A stretch of DNA of 64,000 nucleotides from Paenibacillus bouchesdurhonensis (GTDB taxonomy: Bacteria > Bacillota > Bacilli > Paenibacillales > Paenibacillaceae): contig NZ_LT732548.1 in the NCBI RefSeq assembly GCF_900155685.1, forward strand, positions 3,034,887-3,098,886, given 5' to 3'. Below, piece by piece: positions 9,112-25,054 of this stretch (its first letter is position 1; each line of letters starts with the position of its first letter). A program made the translations under genes and the position numbers. The notes beneath the pieces were generated by a model. The model had not been told where the DNA came from and searched no databases. It was given only the letters and a program-made list of their open reading frames with translations.

Positions 9112-9156
9112 AAAAAATGCCTAATAGAATGGAATTCCATTCTATTAGGCATTTTT
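9112..9156. terminator. Bidirectional terminator (perfect 32-bp palindrome)
   Basis: Positions 9119-9150 form an exact palindrome (arms GCCTAATAGAATGG / CCATTCTATTAGGC around AATT), flanked by A7 on the left and T5 on the right. It lies between the convergent EcsC and FNR-type genes and can terminate both. Confidence 0.85.
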
Positions 9157-9865
9157 AATCAACATGAAGTAACAATTGATCCAAATCTGGGATTTTAATT
9201 TTCTTTTTGGGTAATTGCTTGATCAATCCATGTTGTTCAAGTGAAGTAAATTTACGGCTGATTGTTTCTGGTGTTGTACCAAGATACGAAGCTAAATCCT
9301 TTCTAGACATCGGTAAAGTAATCGTTGGACTATTGCCGCTCCCCTTTTCAACACACTCTGCTAAAAAGGAAATAAGACGGGATTCCACATTTTCAATCGC
9401 TACCTGAGTGGTTTGTTTTTCAGATTCTTTCAAACGCATGGTAACCTCTGACAGTATTCTTAAAGAAATCTGCGGATATGCCAACAAATATTTCTGTAAA
9501 TCCTCTTGTTTGATTAAACAAATTGACGTATTCTGCAGGGCTTCAGCATAATTCTCATGAACACTTCCGGGTTGGAAGATGGCCACCTCACCTGTGAAAT
9601 CTCCTGGATTTAAAATTCGAACGAGTTGTTCCTTTCCGGAGTCAGATAAACGGTAAATCCGAACCTTACCTGAATTGATAATATACAGGGTGTCATCCTC
9701 CTCACCTGCACGGAATAACAATTCACCTTTTTGTAAATGAAGTGTTTTGGCTGATTCTGCAATCATATCCATTTGACGATCTTCCAGATGGTTAAAAATC
9801 GGAACTAAACGAACGCATTCAGCATGTCCACGGTGGTGATGACAACCTTGACTTTGTTCCAACAT
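9155..9865 (-). CDS. Crp/Fnr-family regulator (FLP-like) with N-terminal Cys/His cluster
   Basis: 236 aa. A short N-terminal extension carries CHHHRGHAEC. A cyclic-nucleotide-binding-type beta-roll follows (about 25-145: KGELLFRAGEEDDTLYIINSGKVRIYRL), then a dimerisation helix and a Crp-type helix-turn-helix (about 175-225: MSRKDLASYLGTTPETISRKF). The CHHHRGHAEC segment, with two Cys and four His, may bind metal or an iron-sulfur cluster or act as a thiol switch. It does not match the four-cysteine pattern of E. coli FNR. The gene sits downstream of the metal-transport cluster. Two FNR-type boxes precede the ATPase gene and the HMA/ric pair, making this protein the obvious candidate to bind them. 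In Lactococcus, flp genes are likewise linked to a metal P-type ATPase gene. The start ATG follows GGGGGA. Confidence 0.85.
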   Translation of the reverse strand: MLEQSQGCHHHRGHAECVRLVPIFNHLEDRQMDMIAESAKTLHLQKGELLFRAGEEDDTLYIINSGKVRIYRLSDSGKEQLVRILNPGDFTGEVAIFQPGSVHENYAEALQNTSICLIKQEDLQKYLLAYPQISLRILSEVTMRLKESEKQTTQVAIENVESRLISFLAECVEKGSGNSPTITLPMSRKDLASYLGTTPETISRKFTSLEQHGLIKQLPKKKIKIPDLDQLLLHVD

Positions 9866-10110: not shown

Positions 10111-10416
10111 TTAAGAGTGATACGCTTTGTCTGCTTCCGACAACATATTATATACGGCTGCATAAGTGTCGCATACATCTCCAGGAATGGTGTAATTGCC
10201 TGTAATTTTACGTAACTGAGCAAATTCGAGATCCAAGTTGGGTTTGTTAGTTCTTGCGTTTTTAACTTTATCGTTTATTGCTTCAAATAGACTACGTATT
10301 TCAAATGCTTCTGGGTGATTCTTACCATGGGCACGTGTGATAGCAGTAGTGAATAAATCTAATTTTTCAAAATAGTCCGTTGCAATATCGATAAATGTTC
10401 CTGTTTGTTCTAACAT
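10111..10416 (-). CDS. Ric-like small protein (putative iron-sulfur cluster repair family)
   Basis: 101 aa, soluble and helical. Sequence features include FIDIATDYFEKLDLFTTAITRAHGKNHPEAFEIRSLF and a C-terminal NYTIPGDVCDTYAAVYNML. It resembles small Firmicute proteins annotated as iron-sulfur cluster repair di-iron protein Ric. I base this on remembered sequence similarity, so the name is tentative. It has His and acidic residues that could bind iron but is too short to carry a full hemerythrin fold plus the ScdA N-terminal domain. It lies 39 bp downstream of the HMA gene on the same strand with its own AGGAGG site. It probably shares the FNR-box promoter upstream of that gene, which fits a role in redox or metal stress. 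Confidence 0.6.
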   Translation of the reverse strand: MLEQTGTFIDIATDYFEKLDLFTTAITRAHGKNHPEAFEIRSLFEAINDKVKNARTNKPNLDLEFAQLRKITGNYTIPGDVCDTYAAVYNMLSEADKAYHS

Positions 10417-10455: not shown

Positions 10456-10689
10456 TTAGGCAGATTTTACTTTTGATTTTATGACGGGATACCCCAAGTC
10501 CTCGATGGCTTTTTCGATATCGCCAATAGCTATCTTTTCTGAATGAAAATCTACTTTTACTTTACTTGCATTGAATAATACTTTTACGCTATCTGGATTG
10601 ATGCCGTTCAATCCTTTTACTGCATTCTCAATCTTTTGCATACATGATGGACAAGATAAGGTATCTAGTTGAATGCTAGCTTTTTGCAT
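10456..10689 (-). CDS. HMA-domain metallochaperone (CopZ-like)
   Basis: 77 aa, a single heavy-metal-associated domain with the ferredoxin-like fold. The metal site is CPSC at residues 14-17 (TLSCPSCMQKIENAV), which replaces the usual GMTCxxC. The cognate P-type ATPase just upstream lacks an N-terminal HMA domain, so this protein may supply that function in trans. The start ATG at 10689 has an AAGGAG site 9 bp upstream. The promoter has an extended FNR-type box. The metal is not certain: CopZ proteins carry Cu(I), but Zn/Cd/Fe versions exist. Confidence 0.85.
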   Translation of the reverse strand: MQKASIQLDTLSCPSCMQKIENAVKGLNGINPDSVKVLFNASKVKVDFHSEKIAIGDIEKAIEDLGYPVIKSKVKSA

Positions 10690-10755: not shown

Positions 10756-10797
10756 AGTATAGCTTTGTTTTGTCTTCAAAAAATTGATAGAGATCAA
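10756..10797 (-). promoter_or_regulatory. FNR/FLP-type box and -10 for the HMA-ric operon
   Basis: TTGATAGAGATCAA (10784-10797) is a perfect FNR-type site (TTGAT-N4-ATCAA). A TATACT -10 lies at 10756-10761 on the minus strand and no good -35 is present. Box centre to -10 centre is 32 bp, which puts the box at -41.5. That is the class II activator position and implies activation. Confidence 0.8.
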
Positions 10798-10808
10798 GTT
10801 ATGATGAT

Positions 10809-12662
10809 TTAAATTTTTAAACGGAATCTCAACAATCTCATACCATTAAAGATGACCGCCAAGATACTTGCTTCGTGAACCAACATCCCAATGGACATGT
10901 TCATCCACTCACTGAATAATACGCTGGCGAGCAAGACCAATACCACACCTACCGCAATGAAGATGTTTTGTTTCATGTTTCTTGCGGTTGATTTTGTCAG
11001 GCCTAATGCGTGTGGCAAACGGCTGAAGTCAGAATTCATTAAGACTACATCGGATGTTTCAATCGCAACGTCTGTTCCGCTTCCCATGGCGATCCCGATA
11101 TCTGCTAAGGCCAAGGATGGGCTGTCATTGACCCCGTCACCGACAAAGGCTACGATTTGACCTTCTGCTTGCATTTTTTCAATATAAGCTGATTTACCTC
11201 CTGGCAGCATATGACCATGCGCTTCAGTCAGCCCAAGTTCACGAGCAACTAAATCAACTGTCCCTTGGTTGTCCCCGGAAAGAACCACCAGGTTTTTCAC
11301 GCCTAGTTTTTTAAGTTTTTGGAGATCTTGTTTGACGCCTGGACGGATTTGATCCCGAATACCCATTAGAACTTTCAATTTTCCATCAACTGCGGTCAAG
11401 ACAAGAGAGTTCCCGTTTTGTTCAAAGCGTTCTACGTCTCTTCGGACTTTTTTGTTTAGTTCAACATTTTCCTTTTCCATTAAAGCTACGTTACCAACTG
11501 CTATACGATGACCCTTTACTTTTGCGACAATCCCGCCACCTTTAACCACTTCGGTTTCTTCTACAGTGGAAAAAGTAGTCTCGCCAATGTCTTGCAGGAC
11601 TGCCTTTGCCAGTGGGTGATCTGATTCACGTTCTACACTTGCCAAGTATCCTAGTGCTTCCTCAATATTTTCACCGTAAAATTCTTTTTCGGCAACCTCA
11701 GGGTTCCCTACGGTTAAAGTTCCGGTTTTATCAAAAACAATCGTGTCAACATTACTGAAATCATGGATCACTTCACTACCTTTTAAGAGTACACCATTCC
11801 GGGCGCCATTTCCGATCCCGGCAACGTTGGATACTGGCACTCCGATAACCAATGCCCCTGGGCATCCCAATACCAAGATCGTGATGGCCAGCTCAATGTC
11901 ACCGCTGAACAGCCCAATAATTAAGGAAAGGATTAGAACAGCTGGGGTATAGTATTTCGAGAAACGGTCAATGAACCTTTCTGCTTCTGATTTGGAATCC
12001 TGTGCTTCTTCAACTAATTCGATGATTCTACCAAATGTTGTATCTTCGCCGACACGATCAGCTCGGATTTGAATCGTTCCGTTTTCCAAGATAGTTCCCG
12101 CAAACACTTCAGAATCAACAGTCTTGCTTACGGGTACGGACTCACCCGTGATACTCGCTTCATTGATGTGACCTTCTCCAGTCAACACGGTTCCATCCAC
12201 TGGAACTTTCGCACCGGTCTTTACGAGCAGGATATCTCCTTCGTCTACTTCATCGACCTCTACCTCTTCAAATTCTCCGTTTTCCATTTGTTTCAGGGCA
12301 CTTTCTGGTGCCATCTCGGTTAATTCTTTAATGGCGGATCGTGTTTTATTCAAAGTGCGCTGTTCTAAGAAAGAACCGAATAAGAATAAGAAAGTAACAA
12401 TAGCTGACTCTTCATAGTTTTGAATTAAAAAAGCTCCAATAACGGCGATGGTGACTAATACATCAATACTGATGACTTTTACTTTTAATGCTTGATACGC
12501 TTGAATGGCGATGGGGGCCACCCCGAAAATAGAAGCAATGATGAATGACCAGTTGAAAAGAGTGACATTACCTAAAACAAAATGACTAAACAAACCAATT
12601 AAAATTAAAGTTCCGCTAATCAGCGTTATCTGATTTTTCTTCCTTAATACATGGATTTGCAT
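10809..12662 (-). CDS. Heavy-metal-translocating P1B-type ATPase (CPG motif)
   Basis: 617 aa membrane pump. All P-type motifs are visible: ITGES in the actuator domain, DKTGT with the phosphorylated Asp, SDHPLA in the nucleotide domain, and GDGVND. The transmembrane metal-site motif is GCPGALVIG, i.e. CPG rather than the usual CPC or SPC. There is no N-terminal HMA domain; a separate 77-aa HMA protein is encoded next to it. The start ATG follows AGGAGG by 6 bp. The promoter carries an FNR-type box at -41.5. The context (FLP-like regulator, Ric-like protein) suggests export or homeostasis of Fe, Zn or another metal under redox stress. Which metal cannot be told from sequence. Confidence 0.9.
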   Translation of the reverse strand: MQIHVLRKKNQITLISGTLILIGLFSHFVLGNVTLFNWSFIIASIFGVAPIAIQAYQALKVKVISIDVLVTIAVIGAFLIQNYEESAIVTFLFLFGSFLEQRTLNKTRSAIKELTEMAPESALKQMENGEFEEVEVDEVDEGDILLVKTGAKVPVDGTVLTGEGHINEASITGESVPVSKTVDSEVFAGTILENGTIQIRADRVGEDTTFGRIIELVEEAQDSKSEAERFIDRFSKYYTPAVLILSLIIGLFSGDIELAITILVLGCPGALVIGVPVSNVAGIGNGARNGVLLKGSEVIHDFSNVDTIVFDKTGTLTVGNPEVAEKEFYGENIEEALGYLASVERESDHPLAKAVLQDIGETTFSTVEETEVVKGGGIVAKVKGHRIAVGNVALMEKENVELNKKVRRDVERFEQNGNSLVLTAVDGKLKVLMGIRDQIRPGVKQDLQKLKKLGVKNLVVLSGDNQGTVDLVARELGLTEAHGHMLPGGKSAYIEKMQAEGQIVAFVGDGVNDSPSLALADIGIAMGSGTDVAIETSDVVLMNSDFSRLPHALGLTKSTARNMKQNIFIAVGVVLVLLASVLFSEWMNMSIGMLVHEASILAVIFNGMRLLRFRLKI

Positions 12663-12708
12663 TTTTGTCCTCCTACTAGTTTTACTTTTTCTTATTGTTG
12701 GTGATTCT

Positions 12709-12750
12709 AGTATAGGATGTTTTAGGTTAATGAAAATTGACTCGTATCAA
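12709..12750 (-). promoter_or_regulatory. FNR/FLP-type box and -10 for the P-type ATPase gene
   Basis: TTGACTCGTATCAA (12737-12750) matches TTGAT-N4-ATCAA with one mismatch. A TATACT -10 lies at 12709-12714. The centre-to-centre distance is 32 bp, exactly as at 10756-10797, so this box is also at -41.5. The -10 lies about 47 bp upstream of the ATPase ATG. Confidence 0.75.
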
Positions 12751-12900: not shown

Positions 12901-13215
12901 TTAACTAACTAGTTTCAGACCAACAGCAGATCCAAGCACCATGGCAATAAATAAAATTCGCAAGAAATTTTTTGGTTCACCATAAAAGACCATTCCGAGA
13001 ACCGCTCCACCAGATGCCCCGATTCCTGTCCATACCGCATATGCCGTTCCCATCGGCAAGGTGCTCATCGCCAAAGACAAGAACAAAAAGCTTAATCCGA
13101 AGCCTGCAACCAACAAAAATAATGATAGCGCATTTCGATCTTTGTTCAATTTATTAATCATCAGGACGCCGAACATTTCAAATAACCCTGCTAGAACAAG
13201 AAAAAACCAATTCAT
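12901..13215 (-). CDS. gdnD: SMR-family guanidinium exporter subunit (GdnD/YkkD type)
   Basis: 104 aa with four predicted transmembrane helices, a small multidrug resistance protein. It has the conserved membrane Glu (LAGLFEMFGVLMINKL, first helix) and the GTAYAVWTGIGASGG signature. It is the shorter partner of a heterodimeric pair. Its ribosome site AAGGAGGTGG overlaps the end of gdnC and the two genes are 3 bp apart, so they are translationally linked. The upstream guanidine-I riboswitch identifies the likely substrate as guanidinium rather than a broad drug set. The symbol is assigned by that context. Confidence 0.85.
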   Translation of the reverse strand: MNWFFLVLAGLFEMFGVLMINKLNKDRNALSLFLLVAGFGLSFLFLSLAMSTLPMGTAYAVWTGIGASGGAVLGMVFYGEPKNFLRILFIAMVLGSAVGLKLVS

Positions 13216-13218
13216 CTG

Positions 13219-13554
13219 TTAAGCCACCTCCTTTTTCTTATCTTTGCTTAACATTTTTAGCCCAATAACCCCCAATAGCAGCACTGCAATGAGCAGCATC
13301 TTTTCCATTTGAACAGGAGCGCCAAATATAATTATTTCTGCAAGAACAGTACCAGCTGTACCTAAACCAACGAAAACAGCATATACAGTGCCAACAGGCA
13401 GGAATCGAGAAGCCCCAATCATCAAGGTGAAGCTTACGATAATGGCAATCACTGTTGCCCCCCATTCAAAAATTCCGCTGGCATGTTTCAATCCAATGAC
13501 CCATCCCACCTCAAATACCGCAGCGATAATAACAGACAACCACGTTTTGTTCAT
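13219..13554 (-). CDS. gdnC: SMR-family guanidinium exporter subunit (GdnC/YkkC type)
   Basis: 111 aa with four predicted transmembrane helices. The membrane Glu is in [19 protein letters not shown] and the signature [17 protein letters not shown] follows. The C terminus is Lys-rich (KDKKKEVA), as in the longer subunit of paired SMR exporters. The start is the ATG at 13554, behind GGAAGG at 8 bp; the longer frame to 13611 has no ribosome site. It is the first gene after the guanidine-I riboswitch and its terminator. Together with the next gene it would form a proton-coupled guanidinium antiporter in the cytoplasmic membrane. Confidence 0.87.
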
Positions 13555-13617
13555 TGCTTTAACCTTCCTCTCTAGAATTACGCTACTTATAACATTTATC
13601 AAATGTAGCAAAAATAT

Positions 13618-13670
13618 AAAAAAGCCTGGGAAAACAAACTGTTTTACAACAGTTTATCTCCCAGGCTTTT
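13618..13670 (-). terminator. Riboswitch expression-platform terminator
   Basis: On the minus strand, AAGCCTGGGA pairs with TCCCAGGCTT, with an inner stem AAACTG/CAGTTT, followed by TTTTTTAT. It overlaps the 3' part of the aptamer, so formation of one structure should exclude the other. Transcription would end before gdnC without ligand. Confidence 0.85.
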
Positions 13671-13752
13671 ATCCCTCCGTGGCACAACGAATGAGTTGTG
13701 AGTTATCTCTCGGACCAGCCAACAATAAATCGCGGAACCCTAGATAACATTT
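13655..13752 (-). promoter_or_regulatory. Guanidine-I riboswitch (ykkC class)
   Basis: Read on the minus strand, the conserved blocks of the ykkC RNA appear in order: TCTAGGGTTCCGCG, then GGCTGGTCCGAGAGATA, then a variable hairpin (ACAACTCATTCGTTGT), then GCCACGGAGGGATAAAAGCC running into the terminator. These blocks match the known guanidine-I aptamer. Guanidine binding stabilises the aptamer and lets transcription continue into the SMR pair. This is recognition by eye; an Rfam covariance search for the guanidine-I family would settle it. Confidence 0.92.
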
Positions 13753-13833
13753 GAATTATTCAATTCTTTTAAATTATACACAGTTTCTTGTTCTTTTCAA
13801 CTCCGCAAAAAGACCGCTCTAAGCTTGAGAACA

Positions 13834-15258
13834 TTATTTAATAACTACATATTCCAAGTCGACAAGCTTTGCGTAGGTGATAATTTGGTCTGTTGTTAAG
13901 TTTAATGAAACAACGGTATGATGGCCGCCGCCATTCTCGATCCAAGCTTTAACCCCATCTTGGAAGTTTGGCTTAACTTCCCATAGTACGCGGGCCACTG
14001 GCAGTTTAGGGGCTGGAACCGTCGGTTCAAAGGCAGAAACTTCGTTGATCAATAGTTTATAGTGAGTGCCAAAGTCAGCCATGGAAACAACTACGCCTTC
14101 TCCACTTTTACCATCAAATACTAAACGGGCTGGATCTTCACGATCGCCAATGCCTAATGGTGAAACGATAATTTTTGGTTTATTGCCCGCCAATGTAGGA
14201 TCCACTTCAAGCATATGCGATTGCAGGATGGCTTCTTGACCAGCCGCCATTTCATAAGTGTAATCTTCCATAAAGCCTGTAGATTGGTTATGGCTCATCA
14301 CTTTGAGCAAACGGTCAAGTGCCGCCGTCTTCCAATCCCCTTCACCCGCAAAGCCATAACCTTGAGCCATCAAGCGTTGGACGGCTAATCCAGGAAGCTG
14401 CTTCATGCCATGCAAATCTTCGAAGTTCGTTGTAAAGGCATTGTAGCCGCCTTGATCCAGGAAACGTTTCATGGCAATTTCATAGCTTGCTTGTACTTTT
14501 ACACTAGCCTCCCAGTCTTCCTTACTGTAAGTCCCGTAATCGAAGTCATAAAGCTTTGCATATTCGGCGAACAATGCATCAATTTCTTCTACTTTAACCT
14601 CATTCACGTATTGAACAAGATCGCCGATGCCAAAGTAATCAACGGTCCAGCCAAATTGAATTTGTGCTTCAACCTTATCTCCTTCGGTTACGCCAACGTT
14701 GCGCATGTTGTCGCCAAAGCGAGCAACTTTAATATTGAAACTTTCGTTATAGGCAACCGCGACGTCCATCCATTCTGCAATCTGCTTCTGTACTTCAGGA
14801 CGCTCCCAGTATCCTACTACAATTTTGTTTTGTTTCTTTAAACGTGCATTGATGAAGCCATATTCACGATCACCATGAGCTGCTTGGTTGAGATTCATGA
14901 AGTCCATATCGATCGTAGCCCAAGGGATGCTCTCATTATATTGCGTTGCCAGATGAAGCAAAGGCTTTTGCAAAAGCTTTGTTCCGCGGATCCACATTTT
15001 TGCAGGCGAGAACGTATGCATCCAAGTGATGACACCAGCAACCTCGTCACGATAGTTGACTTCTTTCATGATGCTTGTGATTTTATCTGCGCTAACAGCC
15101 AAATCCTGTAATACTAACGGGTAAGGCAGAACTCCGCTGTTGTTCAAAGCATCCGTCATCGCCTGCGCGTGTGCCTTAACCTCAGATAATGCTTCTTCCC
15201 CATATAGGTGCTGTGATCCGACGACAAACCAAAATTGTTTAGCTGCAACTGTTGACAT
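13834..15258 (-). CDS. araA: L-arabinose isomerase
   Basis: 474 aa from the ATG at 15258 (an ATG two codons upstream is too close to the AGAGG ribosome site). It converts L-arabinose to L-ribulose in the cytoplasm with a Mn2+ cofactor. Recognisable segments are [15 protein letters not shown] at the N terminus, [17 protein letters not shown], and the C-terminal [12 protein letters not shown]. Length matches the usual 470-500 residues. It is the third gene of araB-araD-araA on the minus strand, 27 bp after araD. Transcription from the araB promoter under AraR control is inferred. Confidence 0.97.
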
Positions 15259-15291
15259 ATTCATCCTCTTTTCTGTGATTTTATGGAGTAA

Positions 15292-15987
15292 TTAATTTTG
15301 CCCGTAGTAAGCGTCTTTCCCATGTTTGCGCAAGTAGTGCTTATCTAAAATTCGCTGTGGCAATTCCTCTGCAAAACGGTTTAATTCTCTTGCAAATAAA
15401 TTCATTTTCGAAACTTCTTCCAGCACAACACTGTTCATTACCGCAGATTTCGCATCTTTCCCCCAAGTAAACGGCCCATGTCCTTTAAGCAAAACGCCAG
15501 GAACTGCCATAATATCAATGCCTCGCTGTTCAAAAGTTTCGATGATTACCCGGCCTGTTTCCGCCTCGTAACCGCGATCTACTTCCTCTTGTGTCAAGAA
15601 GCGAGCGCAGGGTACGGAACCATAGAATGTATCGGCGTGCGTCGTCCCCATAACAGGAACATCAAGCCCAGCTTGAGCCCAGACGGTCGCCCAGGTGGAA
15701 TGGGTGTGCACGATGCCGCCGATTTGCGGGTAATGCTTGTAAAGTACAGCGTGAGTAGGCGTATCGGATGAAGGTCTCAATTCTCCTTCGACGACATTTC
15801 CATCTAGATCCATAACGACCATATCACTGGCTTTCATCGTCTCATAGCTAACACCACTAGGTTTAATTACGAACAAGCCGCTTTCACGATCGATTGCACT
15901 TACATTTCCCCACGTATATTTAATGAGTCCCTGTTTCGGCAATTCCAGATTGGCCTGGAAAACCTCTTCTTTTAGCTGTTCTAACAC
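15292..15987 (-). CDS. araD: L-ribulose-5-phosphate 4-epimerase
   Basis: 231 aa class II aldolase/epimerase family member that makes D-xylulose 5-phosphate from L-ribulose 5-phosphate. Zinc-binding histidines are visible in GGIVHTHSTWATVWAQ, and GTTHADTFYGSVPC follows. GTWG-type loop residues appear in KYTWGNVSAIDRESG. The start is a GTG with GGAGG 7 bp upstream. It lies 16 bp downstream of araB. Length is standard. Confidence 0.97.
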   Translation of the reverse strand: MLEQLKEEVFQANLELPKQGLIKYTWGNVSAIDRESGLFVIKPSGVSYETMKASDMVVMDLDGNVVEGELRPSSDTPTHAVLYKHYPQIGGIVHTHSTWATVWAQAGLDVPVMGTTHADTFYGSVPCARFLTQEEVDRGYEAETGRVIIETFEQRGIDIMAVPGVLLKGHGPFTWGKDAKSAVMNSVVLEEVSKMNLFARELNRFAEELPQRILDKHYLRKHGKDAYYGQN

Positions 15988-16003
15988 CTTGCTCCCTCCA
16001 TTT

Positions 16004-17608
16004 TCATACTAAATTGTCGACGGCAGCCTGCTCAATGACGAGGCCTTTTTTGTATCTTTCGATAAAGGTTTCAAACCCTTTTACGTCGATCGGATCGGGA
16101 TGAATTTCTTGTGACTCAACATCATTGAACACTTTGTGGTCGAGGAAGTCTTCCAAGCGTTCTTCCTGAGCTTTGCTCATCATGTAAGAGGCTAGAATGG
16201 ACATGCCCCACGCCCCGCCTTCTCCAGCAGTCGACATCACGGAGACGGGTACATTCATAGCGGCGGCCATCATCTTTTGACCGACTACCGGAGTCTTAAA
16301 TAAACCGCCGTGTCCTAGAATGCTGTCAATCGCAACATTCTCTTCCTTCGTCAAAATGTCCATACCGATCTTCAAAGCTCCAAATGCAGTGAATAAATGA
16401 ACCCGCATAAAATTAGCCAAATTGAATTTGCTTTCCGGCGAGCGAACAAATAATGGACGCCCTTGCTCCAATCCCGTAATATTCTCACCCGAGAGGTAGC
16501 CATAGCTGAGTAATCCGCCGCCATCCGGATCGGCTTCCAGCGCTTTATTCAGCATCACGCTGTACAACTGCTCGTTATCTATCTTATTCCCCACGGCTTC
16601 AGAGTACTCGCGGAACAATCCGATCCAGGCGTTGATATCACTGGAACAGTTATTGGCATGAACCATGCCAACCGGACTACCGTTCGGCGTGGTGACCATA
16701 TCGATCTCCGGATATACTTTAGAAAGCTCTTGCTCCAGTACTATCATAGCAAAAACAGAGGTGCCAACAGACACATTACCAGTACGCTTCCTTACGCTAT
16801 TCGTCGCGACCATCCCGGTTCCGGCATCCCCTTCTGGAGGACAAAGCGGAATACCTGCTTGCAATTGGTTGGATGGATCGAGAATTTTCGCGCCCTCTTC
16901 GGTTAAGACACCAGCTTCTTTACCTGCGGTATACACCTTGGGAAGCAGATCATTGATTTTCCATGGGTATCCCTTGCCAGCTACGAGTTCATCAAACTGC
17001 TTGATCATCGATTCATTATAATTGCCTATGGATTCATCAATCGGGAACATCCCTGAAGCATCTCCGATACCAAGAGCTTTGGTTCCGGTCAACAGCCAAT
17101 GAATATATCCTGCTAACGTCGTAACATAGCGGATCTGCGGCACATGTTCCTCATCGTTTAAGATCGCTTGATACAGATGAGCAATGCTCCATCGTTCAGG
17201 GATATTAAATTGGAATAGATCGGTCAATTGTTTGGCCGCTGCCCCCGTCGTTGCATTACGCCAAGTCCGGAACGGTACGAGTAATTCATTCTTCTCATCA
17301 AAAGCCATATATCCGTGCATCATCGCAGAAAACCCGATTGAACCGATCGTTTGAAGAGTAATTCCGTAAGCGCGTTCAACTTCTTGCTTCAATTCGGAGT
17401 AAGCCTTTTGAAGACCTGTGATAACATCCTCTAAGCTATACGTCCAAAAGCCGTCCTTCAACTGGTTCTCCCATTCGTAGCTTCCAGAAGCAATCGTCTG
17501 AAAGCTACGATCAATAAGTACTGCTTTAATACGTGTGGATCCGAATTCAATACCAAGCGAAGTCTCGCCCTTAACGATCGCTTGTTCCATACTCATTCGA
17601 TTCGACAT
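16004..17608 (-). CDS. araB: Ribulokinase (FGGY family)
   Basis: 534 aa FGGY sugar kinase phosphorylating L-ribulose with ATP. The N-terminal phosphate-binding strand is [16 protein letters not shown]; the C-terminal half has [20 protein letters not shown] and [17 protein letters not shown]. The start could be ATG 17608 or the adjacent GTG 17611; GAGGAG lies just upstream. It heads the araBDA operon. Its promoter carries two AraR boxes and a degenerate cre-like site. The sequence fits the xylulokinase-like branch of ribulokinases that takes the place of classic AraB in Paenibacillus; the operon context supports the ribulokinase role. Confidence 0.9.
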
Positions 17609-17625
17609 CACGTTAGTCTCCTCTC

Positions 17626-17639
17626 TGATAGCGCTTTTT
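17626..17639 (-). promoter_or_regulatory. Degenerate cre-like box before araB
   Basis: TGATAGCGCTTTTT keeps the half-site and CG core of the cre consensus but loses the terminal CA. It sits about 18 bp upstream of the araB start, downstream of the promoter. CcpA control of araBDA is known in Bacillus; here it is inferred from a weak site. Confidence 0.4.
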
Positions 17640-17686
17640 AAAGTAAGGTCTTATTTTAAGATTAAGCTTTTCTTATTAACAATTCT

Positions 17687-17743
17687 AGTATATTTTTTTG
17701 TACGTACATTTGTCAACACATTACGATAGATATACATACAAGT
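17687..17743 (-). promoter_or_regulatory. araBDA promoter with two AraR operators
   Basis: On the minus strand, TTGACA (17711-17716) and TATACT (17687-17692) are spaced by 18 bp. The spacer contains an AraR-type box TTTTGTACGTACATTT (17696-17711), close to the known ATTTGTACGTACAAAT. A weaker box (17728-17743, core ATACATACAAGT) lies with its centre 32 bp upstream. Two in-phase boxes suggest cooperative repression, as in B. subtilis. Confidence 0.85.
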
Positions 17744-17837
17744 TTATAATAGCATGAGACGACACTAGCTTTCAAACAACAAATCTACGCGTCATCATAA
17801 GGATTGCTCCCTCTTTTTATTTTTTTCACAATCATGC

Positions 17838-17857
17838 TATAATTTGTACATACAAGT
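17838..17857 (+). promoter_or_regulatory. araR promoter with AraR operator
   Basis: An extended -10 TGCTATAAT ends at 17843 and directly overlaps an AraR box ATTTGTACATACAAGT (17842-17857; 14 of 16 bases match the known operator). This implies autorepression of araR. Confidence 0.85.
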
Positions 17858-17906
17858 ATTCTAAATATGCAAATATATAGCGAACAAGTATGGAAGAAGG
17901 AGTAAC

Positions 17907-18992
17907 ATGAAACCTAAATATCAAGTGATCATTGATGATATAAAAAGCAAAATCCTTGCCGGAGATTACAGTGTAGGAGAACAAATTCCTACAGAGTCCG
18001 CCATGCAGTCCATGTACGAGGTTAGCAGACAGACCGTTCGAAAAGCGATTTTAGGACTAGCCACCGAAGGGTTCCTGCGAAGCGAGAAAGGGTCTGGAAC
18101 TTATGTCAGCAACCAATACCGCTCGAAATCCGGCGGTAATTCCCATAAGAAGACCATCGGCGTAATCACTACTTACATCTCCGATTACATCTTCCCTTCC
18201 ATTATCCGGGGGATCGAAAGCAGATTGAACGAGGATAATTATTCATTGCTATTAGCCAGTACTAATAACGATGTAGAACAAGAAAAAAAGGCTTTGGAAA
18301 TGATGCTGTCATATGGTGTAGACGGCCTAATTATTGAACCTACGAAAAGCAATCTATACAATCCAAATATTGCTTACTACCTGTCTTTTAAGGAACAAGA
18401 AATTCCGTTCGTGATGATCAATGCTTTTTATGAGGAAATTGAGGTGCCTTTTCTTTGTCTCGATGATGTGCAGTCCAGCTATTTGGCTACGAAGGAACTC
18501 ATTTCCAATGGACACACACAAATCGGACTTATTGCCAAAATGGATGATTTACAAGGGAAATATCGAATGAAGGGGTATATCAAAGCCCTTGGTGAAGCCA
18601 AATTGCGCTTTGATCCAGAGCATGTTCTCTCATTTGACACGGAGACGAAGAAAGCGCTGGCTACAGACCTAAAGGATTTCTTGAGTAAAAACAGAGAGAT
18701 GCTCACAGCTATCGTTTGCTACAATGATGAGGTCGGCTTGGAAGTGGTCAACGCTTGCAGACAGCTTGATATTTCTATTCCGGAACAATTATCGTTAATA
18801 GGCCAGGACAATTCCTATATCGCTAAAAACGCGAACATTAAGTTAACGACCCTTACGCACCCTCAAGAACAAATGGGACGTGATGCGGCGGATTGGGTCA
18901 TTAAGAAATTACAAGGTAAGAAAGATTTGCAAAACCACACTTACTATCAGCCCGTATTAATCGAAGGTGAAACGGTATTAAAGAGACCGTAG
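17907..18992 (+). CDS. araR: Arabinose repressor AraR
   Basis: 361 aa chimeric repressor. The N-terminal GntR-type winged helix (about 1-70: YEVSRQTVRKAILGLATEGFLRSE) is joined to a LacI/GalR-type sugar-binding core (about 80-361: KTIGVITTYISDYIFPSIIRGIE; EQLSLIGQDNSYIAKNANIKLTTLTHP). This combination is the hallmark of AraR. L-arabinose should release it from DNA. It is divergent from araBDA with three matching operators between the genes. The start ATG follows GAAGGAG. The 3' end is followed by a hairpin at 19102-19132. Confidence 0.97.
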   Translation: MKPKYQVIIDDIKSKILAGDYSVGEQIPTESAMQSMYEVSRQTVRKAILGLATEGFLRSEKGSGTYVSNQYRSKSGGNSHKKTIGVITTYISDYIFPSIIRGIESRLNEDNYSLLLASTNNDVEQEKKALEMMLSYGVDGLIIEPTKSNLYNPNIAYYLSFKEQEIPFVMINAFYEEIEVPFLCLDDVQSSYLATKELISNGHTQIGLIAKMDDLQGKYRMKGYIKALGEAKLRFDPEHVLSFDTETKKALATDLKDFLSKNREMLTAIVCYNDEVGLEVVNACRQLDISIPEQLSLIGQDNSYIAKNANIKLTTLTHPQEQMGRDAADWVIKKLQGKKDLQNHTYYQPVLIEGETVLKRP

Positions 18993-24377: not shown

Positions 24378-25034
24378 TTAGATTAAGTTAGTTACAAATG
24401 CATTCCAATCATGAACTCTCTTGCCCAAACGCGCAGCCTGAATTCCTTTTGATTTCAACAACTCTATTGCCTTGATAGACATCAAGCAGTACGGGCCTCT
24501 GCAATACGCTACAACTCTAGCACTTGCGGGCAACGATGCTAACTGCTCAGCCAGCTCTTCCATAGGCATCGATAAAGCGCCAGGTATATGAGCAGCGTCA
24601 TACTCATCTTTTGGACGTACGTCAATAAGGGTTACCTCTCCGGCTTCCATACGTTTCAAGAGTTCTTTCATTGAGATTTCTTCTACATCTGACAGTTGCC
24701 CTAAGAATTCGTTTTTAATATGATCAATTTCAATTAATTGTTTATCAGCTAGTCCATAAAGAGAATCTAAGAAATGTAACACAGCAGGATCAGCCAGCTC
24801 ATAAAAAACGAAGTTCCCTTGTTTTTTAGAATCTACCAATTTAGCATGATGTAGAGTTTGCAGATGCTGAGAAACATTAGCTATGGACATGGAAGTCATT
24901 TTCGATATACTCTCCACCGATTTTGGGCCTTGTACTAAAACATCCAGGATCTCTAATCGTTTCGGGCTTGAAAGGCACTTGCCAACCCGTGCATATTCTT
25001 TAAATAGTTCATCTTTAAAGTATCTTTCATTCAT
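24378..25034 (-). CDS. ArsR-type HTH fused to a rhodanese domain
   Basis: About 218 aa. The N-terminal ArsR-like winged helix (about 10-95: SSPKRLEILDVLVQGPKSVESISKMTSMSIANVSQHLQTL) is followed by a rhodanese domain (about 120-218) with the active-site loop YCRGPYC. The catalytic Cys is present, so persulfide transfer or sulfane-sulfur sensing is plausible. The start ATG at 25034 follows GAGGTG; a GTG further up is part of that site. An inverted repeat TTCAAT-N6-ATTGAA lies 21 bp upstream and is probably its own operator. The downstream MFS gene is its likely target. Confidence 0.88.
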   Translation of the reverse strand: MNERYFKDELFKEYARVGKCLSSPKRLEILDVLVQGPKSVESISKMTSMSIANVSQHLQTLHHAKLVDSKKQGNFVFYELADPAVLHFLDSLYGLADKQLIEIDHIKNEFLGQLSDVEEISMKELLKRMEAGEVTLIDVRPKDEYDAAHIPGALSMPMEELAEQLASLPASARVVAYCRGPYCLMSIKAIELLKSKGIQAARLGKRVHDWNAFVTNLI

Positions 25035-25054
25035 CAAAATCAACACCTCAATAA

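Follow-up and report, generated by a model that had tools for sequence, protein, structure and literature searches.

An FNR-like regulator and rigidly spaced class II-type promoters predicted to control a mobile metal module of Paenibacillus bouchesdurhonensis and other Firmicutes

Introduction

The regulators to which metal resistance in Firmicutes is usually linked are Fur, PerR, MntR, ArsR/SmtB, MerR and CopY/CsoR. Activators of the FNR type read TTGAT through the E-xx-SR residues of their recognition helix, and an exact register between activator site and -10 hexamer, combined with a poor -35, is the signature of class II activation. FNR of E. coli and A. fischeri combines this helix with a set of four cysteines, and serves a global anaerobic regulon. 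The FNR-like proteins (FLPs) of Gram-positive hosts, among them FLP of L. casei, FlpA and FlpB of L. lactis and FlpS of S. suis, have two conserved cysteines. The described target of FlpS is arginine deiminase. In the available parts of two papers, FlpA is placed among metal-homeostasis regulons (PMC3616900) and a Dps-like gene is altered in an flpS mutant (PMC5039431).

The P1B-4 ATPases, which include the Fe(II) exporters PfeT, FrvA and PmtA, have SPC in TM4, according to the accessible portions of PMC7012047 and PMC3283593. Their TM6 motif is HEGST, and the regulators of the Fe(II) exporters are Fur and PerR. Ric, ScdA and YtfE are proteins of iron-centre repair.

Here we analyse a stretch of 64,000 nt from P. 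bouchesdurhonensis (contig NZ_LT732548.1), called the window below, in whose positions the box coordinates are counted. Its metal cluster resembles the FNR systems in the fold of the regulator, the E-xx-SR helix, TTGAT-N4-ATCAA sites, a spacing that would place them at -41.5 and a poor -35. It differs from them in that the four-cysteine set is FNR's and not found here, and in that the promoter design serves one metal locus and not a global anaerobic regulon. With the FLPs it shares its FNR-like character, two conserved cysteines and Gram-positive hosts, whereas the described FlpS target is of another kind. The ATPase resembles the P1B-4 group in size, in that no HMA domain was found in it, and in a TM6 motif HE(G/A)SI close to HEGST, but it has CPG in TM4, and its predicted regulator is FNR-like.

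Two promoters of identical geometry

The cluster consists of the following features, in descending order along the minus strand.

12750..12737, minus strand: FNR-type box of the ATPase promoter, TTGATACGAGTCAA, read from the sequence and kept upstream of ATPase genes in relatives
12714..12709, minus strand: -10 hexamer TATACT of the ATPase promoter, 22 nt 3' of the box
10809..12662, minus strand: P1B-type heavy-metal ATPase, 617 aa, with CPG in TM4 and HEASI in TM6
10797..10784, minus strand: FNR-type box of the HMA promoter, TTGATCTCTATCAA, read from the sequence
10761..10756, minus strand: -10 hexamer TATACT of the HMA promoter, 22 nt 3' of the box
10456..10689, minus strand: stand-alone HMA protein, 77 aa, with a CPSC metal-binding motif
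10111..10416, minus strand: half-length Ric-like protein (half-Ric), 101 aa
10029..10064, minus strand: terminator-like hairpin that separates the HMA-ric unit from the regulator gene, a consensus match only
9155..9865, minus strand: Crp/Fnr-family regulator, 236 aa, with Pfam domains cNMP_binding and HTH_Crp_2

Both promoters read box, 22 nt, TATACT and then the gene start (12662 for the ATPase, 10689 for HMA). A preliminary description of this DNA had placed both boxes with their centres 32 bp from a TATACT, had seen no good -35 at either promoter, and had noted an FNR/FLP-type gene in the same cluster. All of this agrees with our analysis: the centre distance is 32 bp at both promoters, the best -35 of the ATPase promoter is TTTTCA with a 16-nt spacer while none is listed for the HMA promoter, and the Crp/Fnr gene lies at 9155-9865. 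The HMA box matches TTGATN4ATCAA perfectly, and the ATPase box has one mismatch. Because a 14-bp class II site centred at -41.5 leaves a gap of 22 nt to a hexamer at -12 to -7, the geometry in the window is exact. With the hexamers set at -12 to -7, and start sites predicted from them, both boxes would be centred at -41.5.

Rarity of the composite site

The box by itself was rejected as evidence, since the window holds about as many as chance predicts (70 matches with up to two mismatches vs 62.7 expected); exact palindromes occur 19 times across the genome. A third perfect palindrome of the window (24472-24485) has no gap-22 composite and falls inside the coding region 24378-25046 (minus strand), whose product joins an ArsR-type regulator to a rhodanese domain.

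The composite site (TTGA-N6-TCAA, 22 nt, TATANT) is far rarer. It occurs twice in the 5.82-Mb genome, both times at the module, while the reversed control gave none and 16 Mb of sequence simulated with an order-2 Markov model of the window gave none either. The preliminary description had suggested a genome-wide search for more boxes at -41.5; among 21 box-hexamer matches with gaps of 8-36 nt in the whole genome there was no third at gap 22, hence no gap-22 regulon member beyond these two.

In 38 other genomes of the genus, which hold no close version of the module, there were 18 composite sites in total, against 8 for the reversed control over all 40 genomes; three of the 18 (in G481, G522 and G527) lie within ~2.5 kb of a relative of the regulator. 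Since these genomes hold about one composite per two genomes, it is the pairing, linkage and conservation of the sites that carry the weight. In 20 related genomes the composite was found 75 times and its reversed control 5 times.

Conservation of the spacing in relatives

Relatives were collected by an ATPase scan of genome contigs from Bacillales, Lactobacillales and Clostridia-type records, of which the best 80 of 423 were used. Together with three plasmid loci, the nearest same-genus relative (L030) and the whole window they form a set of 85 loci. Cases of a box followed by TATANT at gap 22 numbered 190, whereas the remaining gaps between 10 and 40 gave 31 together; these raw counts overstate the number of independent events, since the set includes many close copies of mobile modules. 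Sites with gaps of 21-23, 198 in all, precede the ATPase gene in 69 loci, the HMA gene in 65, the regulator in 28 and Dps in 27; the rest precede half-Ric (3) or one other gene, and one site has no gene.

When one representative was kept per 90% ATPase cluster (35 clusters, L030 left out) and a looser hexamer was used, gap 22 still accounted for 47 cases vs 22 at other gaps. A gap-22 site stood before at least one module gene in 30 of the 35 clusters and before two or more in 16; it was missing in five (representatives L112, L122, L126, L137 and L138). L030, whose ATPase is 94% identical, keeps both composite promoters with a changed ATPase box core and two changed spacers. A box not conserved in relatives had been named at the outset as evidence against the proposal; both box and spacing turned out to be conserved.

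The same design was found further away. In all 19 additional loci of the family with a CPG-type ATPase of 42-50% identity (the L049 frame holds a stop), the HMA or ATPase gene is preceded on its coding strand by a gap-22 site, and none of nine control loci with a CPC-type ATPase has one. Hexamers in this distant set are weaker: 19/19 match TATAAT at four or more positions, only 7/19 at five or more of the six, and with the looser setting 22 sites had gap 22, against 12 for the rest of the range 8-40. The flanks fetched for ten of the 19 loci contain an FNR-like gene; those of the other nine showed no regulator. Among seven longer stretches of the distant group the order is HMA, ATPase, regulator in five (L194-L198); L199 differs, and L200 shows no regulator. 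Plasmid pGdh442 of L. lactis (regulator 40%, ATPase 54% identical) and an L. paracasei plasmid, the latter in a stretch without an annotated regulator, also have gap-22 sites before ATPase and HMA. Genes bearing the site encode the HMA protein and the CPG-type P1B ATPase, joined in some lineages by Dps and the regulator. These comparisons mark the composite promoter as an old and stable design that travels with the module genes.

The module genes

CPG in TM4 was found in all 81 ATPases read, and outside that count in L030 and the 19 distant ones. TM6 reads HEGSI in 40 of the 81, HEASI in 37, HELSI in three and HEVSI in one; compared with HEGxT, HE is kept, I replaces T throughout and G is replaced in half. 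Scored against pumps with solved structures, the window ATPase comes about as close to the copper ones as to those of cadmium/cobalt type and of zinc. A copper-type reading is not favoured, because CPC is lacking and TM6 is nearer to that of the SPC/HEGST pump 7qbz, which we take to be sCoaT, than to that of LpCopA. The HMA protein, in turn, resembles copper chaperones.

The half-Ric gene is probably co-transcribed with HMA, to judge from its position. Its product had no Pfam match and nothing in PHROGs, and showed a weak C-terminal match to TIGR03652 (37.6 bits vs a cut-off of 204.7), a family model of 216 positions against its own 101 aa. The predicted helical bundle (pLDDT 90.5) is best matched by Ric/ScdA and YtfE, with a best Foldseek E of only 0.009, and H30, H34 and C82 are invariant in 25 aligned sequences. 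Half-Ric is most like the iron-centre repair proteins in fold and differs from them in length and in its weak family scores.

Mobility and gene neighbourhood

Among the matches listed, an ATPase more than 50% identical was found in only this genome and G359 of 197 genomes of the family. The same two, out of 40 genomes of the genus, are alone in having two composites within 2 kb and a regulator at least 90% identical. With a close module in just these two, the cluster was probably acquired by transfer.

Relatives of the module genes also lie on plasmids. Two separate PLSDB searches gave 434 plasmids with an ATPase relative (E up to 1e-100; 95 under 60% identity) and 435 with a regulator relative (E up to 1e-30; 97 under 60% identity). 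On Listeria, Enterococcus and Carnobacterium plasmids the order is Dps, regulator, HMA, ATPase, with regulator and HMA separated on some by an lgt gene or fragment, and on pLMR479a all four genes have gap-22 sites. A near-identity DNA search of plasmids found 11 Staphylococcus/Mammaliicoccus records that match ~16% of the query, and the plasmid of strain CX 2-6 (length 168,866, the same as in PMC8554106) carries the module. Neighbours in 59 loci longer than 10 kb include Dps (25), FetB (5) and cupin (5) genes. In both L. lactis and L. paracasei the module is accompanied by a ferritin-like gene, below the Pfam cut-off in L. lactis, and CadD-type cadmium genes adjoin the module on two plasmids.

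Several further arrangements were seen nearby. On pLMR479a (L141, 11288-14330) a SIR2-family gene beside a DUF87 (HerA-like) gene adjoins the module and, from its annotation, looks like a defence pair. In Bacillus niameyensis (L070, 12360-13822) the set HMA, Ric, HMA and regulator is present again ~4 kb away from its first copy, and the fetched DNA ends within this second one. In the window, a Guanidine-I riboswitch (13656-13754, minus strand) precedes paired SMR genes (12901-13215 and 13219-13557), likely an ordinary guanidine exporter. ORF translations suggest that 13834-18992 holds an operon for arabinose (isomerase, epimerase, kinase) and, in divergent orientation, a GntR/LacI-type regulator.

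The linked regulator and alternative explanations

The sites, their exact spacing and conservation, the linkage and the FNR-type recognition residues can be read directly from the DNA and its translations. Very probably, the linked FNR-like regulator acts through class II sites to switch on a module for metal detoxification that is small and mobile. According to this mechanism, the active regulator would bind each box as a dimer centred at -41.5 and, through class II contacts, activate two weak promoters with poor -35 elements. One would drive the CPG-type ATPase, presumably a metal exporter, and the other the HMA metallochaperone together with half-Ric; in relatives the same promoter type may also drive Dps and sometimes the regulator. 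Autoregulation is not suggested in this genome, where no gap-22 box precedes 9865; in 28 of the 85 loci one stands before the regulator gene.

The predicted structure of the regulator (mean pLDDT 79) matches CRP and FNR structures with Z of 18-23 among the 50 matches listed. Its recognition helix reads TTPETISR; in an alignment of 14 of the 40 distinct listed sequences, E200, S203 and R204 of this helix are invariant in 14/14, and they align with FNR residues of the same helix. C17 and C116 are the only cysteines invariant in all 14 (the window regulator has C8, C17, C116 and C171), which is the two-cysteine FLP pattern of one N-terminal and one core cysteine; the four cluster-binding cysteines of FNR were not found in this alignment. 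Aligned with FNR, C116 falls on the core cysteine, and C17 lies in the same N-terminal segment as FNR's other three. An equation of C17 with FNR Cys29 by alignment was not borne out residue for residue. The regulator therefore appears to work like FNR at the promoter while standing outside the four-cysteine FNR group. As that set is absent and only C17 and C116 are invariant, its signal could be a metal, thiol redox, an iron-sulfur cluster or oxygen. Of what was first proposed for this locus, the sequence supports FNR-type sites at the class II position of a small metal regulon and an FNR-like gene linked to it, whereas control by oxygen or redox finds no support in the form then given; oxygen control of the module is hypothetical.

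One explanation for the signal, which we hold tentatively and rate somewhat short of an even chance, is that the regulator is a metalloregulator on an FNR fold that senses metal directly through a His/Cys-rich N-terminus together with C17 and C116. Its targets are metal-handling genes, and the N-terminal segments of many relatives are rich in His or Cys (CHHHRGHAEC, CCHHQHGHAEC, HHHHHSHIDC, HHHHHHHHHEPGNHAAC). The His positions vary, however, with H10 nearly but not fully invariant and few His in L107 and L095, and residues 1-12 of the model have pLDDT below 50, so that no site geometry can be read there.

An alternative explanation, which we regard as unlikely, would make the regulator a genuine [4Fe-4S] FNR that senses oxygen, and the module an anaerobic regulon. 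The best PDB sequence matches are indeed to A. fischeri FNR (residues 4-229), C116 occupies the place of the FNR core cysteine, some relatives have extra N-terminal cysteines (e.g., CHC in L047), and FlpA of L. lactis is said to hold an oxygen-labile cluster via non-cysteine ligands in the available part of PMC5039431. Yet, C17 aligns with no N-terminal cysteine of FNR, the plasmid copies L141-L143 hold just the two invariant cysteines, and the same part of that source notes that Gram-positive FNR-like proteins often have two cysteines.

Repression from these sites seems improbable. Position and spacing alone do not prove activation, and the box lies where RNA polymerase binds, but repression would not require the site to keep a fixed register, and the exact 22-nt register with a poor -35 is what class II activation looks like. 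It is more doubtful still, indeed very improbable, that another Crp/Fnr protein of the host binds the boxes. The genome encodes three further Crp-like proteins (E up to 1e-5) with helices TRESISK, RRETVNR and TRESVNR, the first a near match with E-xx-SK; because none has E-xx-SR, the linked regulator is argued to be the binder. Moreover, the site accompanies the module across many genera and on plasmids, and paired composites within 2 kb are confined to the two genus genomes with the close regulator. Chance coincidence of the box pair is next to inconceivable: the box alone is common and background composites do occur in the genus, but two composites 2 kb apart before the genes of one module, in a register kept in relatives, already contradict it.

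Which metal

By association, ferrous iron is the likeliest cargo, at close to but not above an even chance, followed by other divalent metals. Iron is indicated by the Dps/ferritin partners, the neighbouring iron-export genes of the FetAB type in a few loci, the Ric-like fold, the closeness of the ATPase TM6 to that of Fe(II) exporters, and a NiCo riboswitch. The latter precedes a neighbouring ATPase on a Carnobacterium plasmid and on pLMR479a, where it has been reported (PMC6985202, in the part available), and its class is said to respond to Fe(II) in the accessible part of PMC12593503. Our scan of 20 loci (17 of the 80 contig loci and plasmid loci L142, L143 and L174) found it in only two (L143 and L174), so that its association with the module is not general. 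A firm call for iron is not made, because of this low count, because FetB adjoins in only 5 of 59 loci and because TM4 is CPG and not SPC; the copper-chaperone-like HMA protein and the CadD-type genes on two plasmids count against it as well. A fuller picture, which is speculative and on balance unlikely to hold as a whole, would be that Firmicutes share a mobile module for defence against Fe(II), whose FNR-like sensor with a His/Cys tail, of metal or of an iron-sulfur cluster kind, directly activates a new CPG-type subgroup of P1B Fe(II) exporters together with an HMA chaperone, Dps and half-Ric.

Relation to previous work and implications

Module genes have been recorded before: a table for pLM58 annotates them one by one (PMC5663981, available part). 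The titles and abstract openings searched contained no description of the promoter or regulon of the module. Its locus tags are absent from the main text of PMC6985202, and the available part of the cadmium RNA-seq paper on CX 2-6 (PMC8554106) does not mention it. Overlap of the published FlpA regulon with the module is possible.

The regulon described here extends the preliminary description to a mobile module that in relatives includes Dps and sometimes the regulator itself, while in P. bouchesdurhonensis it has just two promoters. It would represent FNR-like class II control put to a mobile metal module. A metal module of many Enterococcus, Lactococcus, Leuconostoc and Listeria plasmids thus appears to be run by an FNR-like activator through a rigid class II promoter. 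The module poses the question of the substrate of the CPG-type P1B ATPase group and, as a concrete and testable regulon, offers a way into what two-cysteine FNR-like proteins sense.
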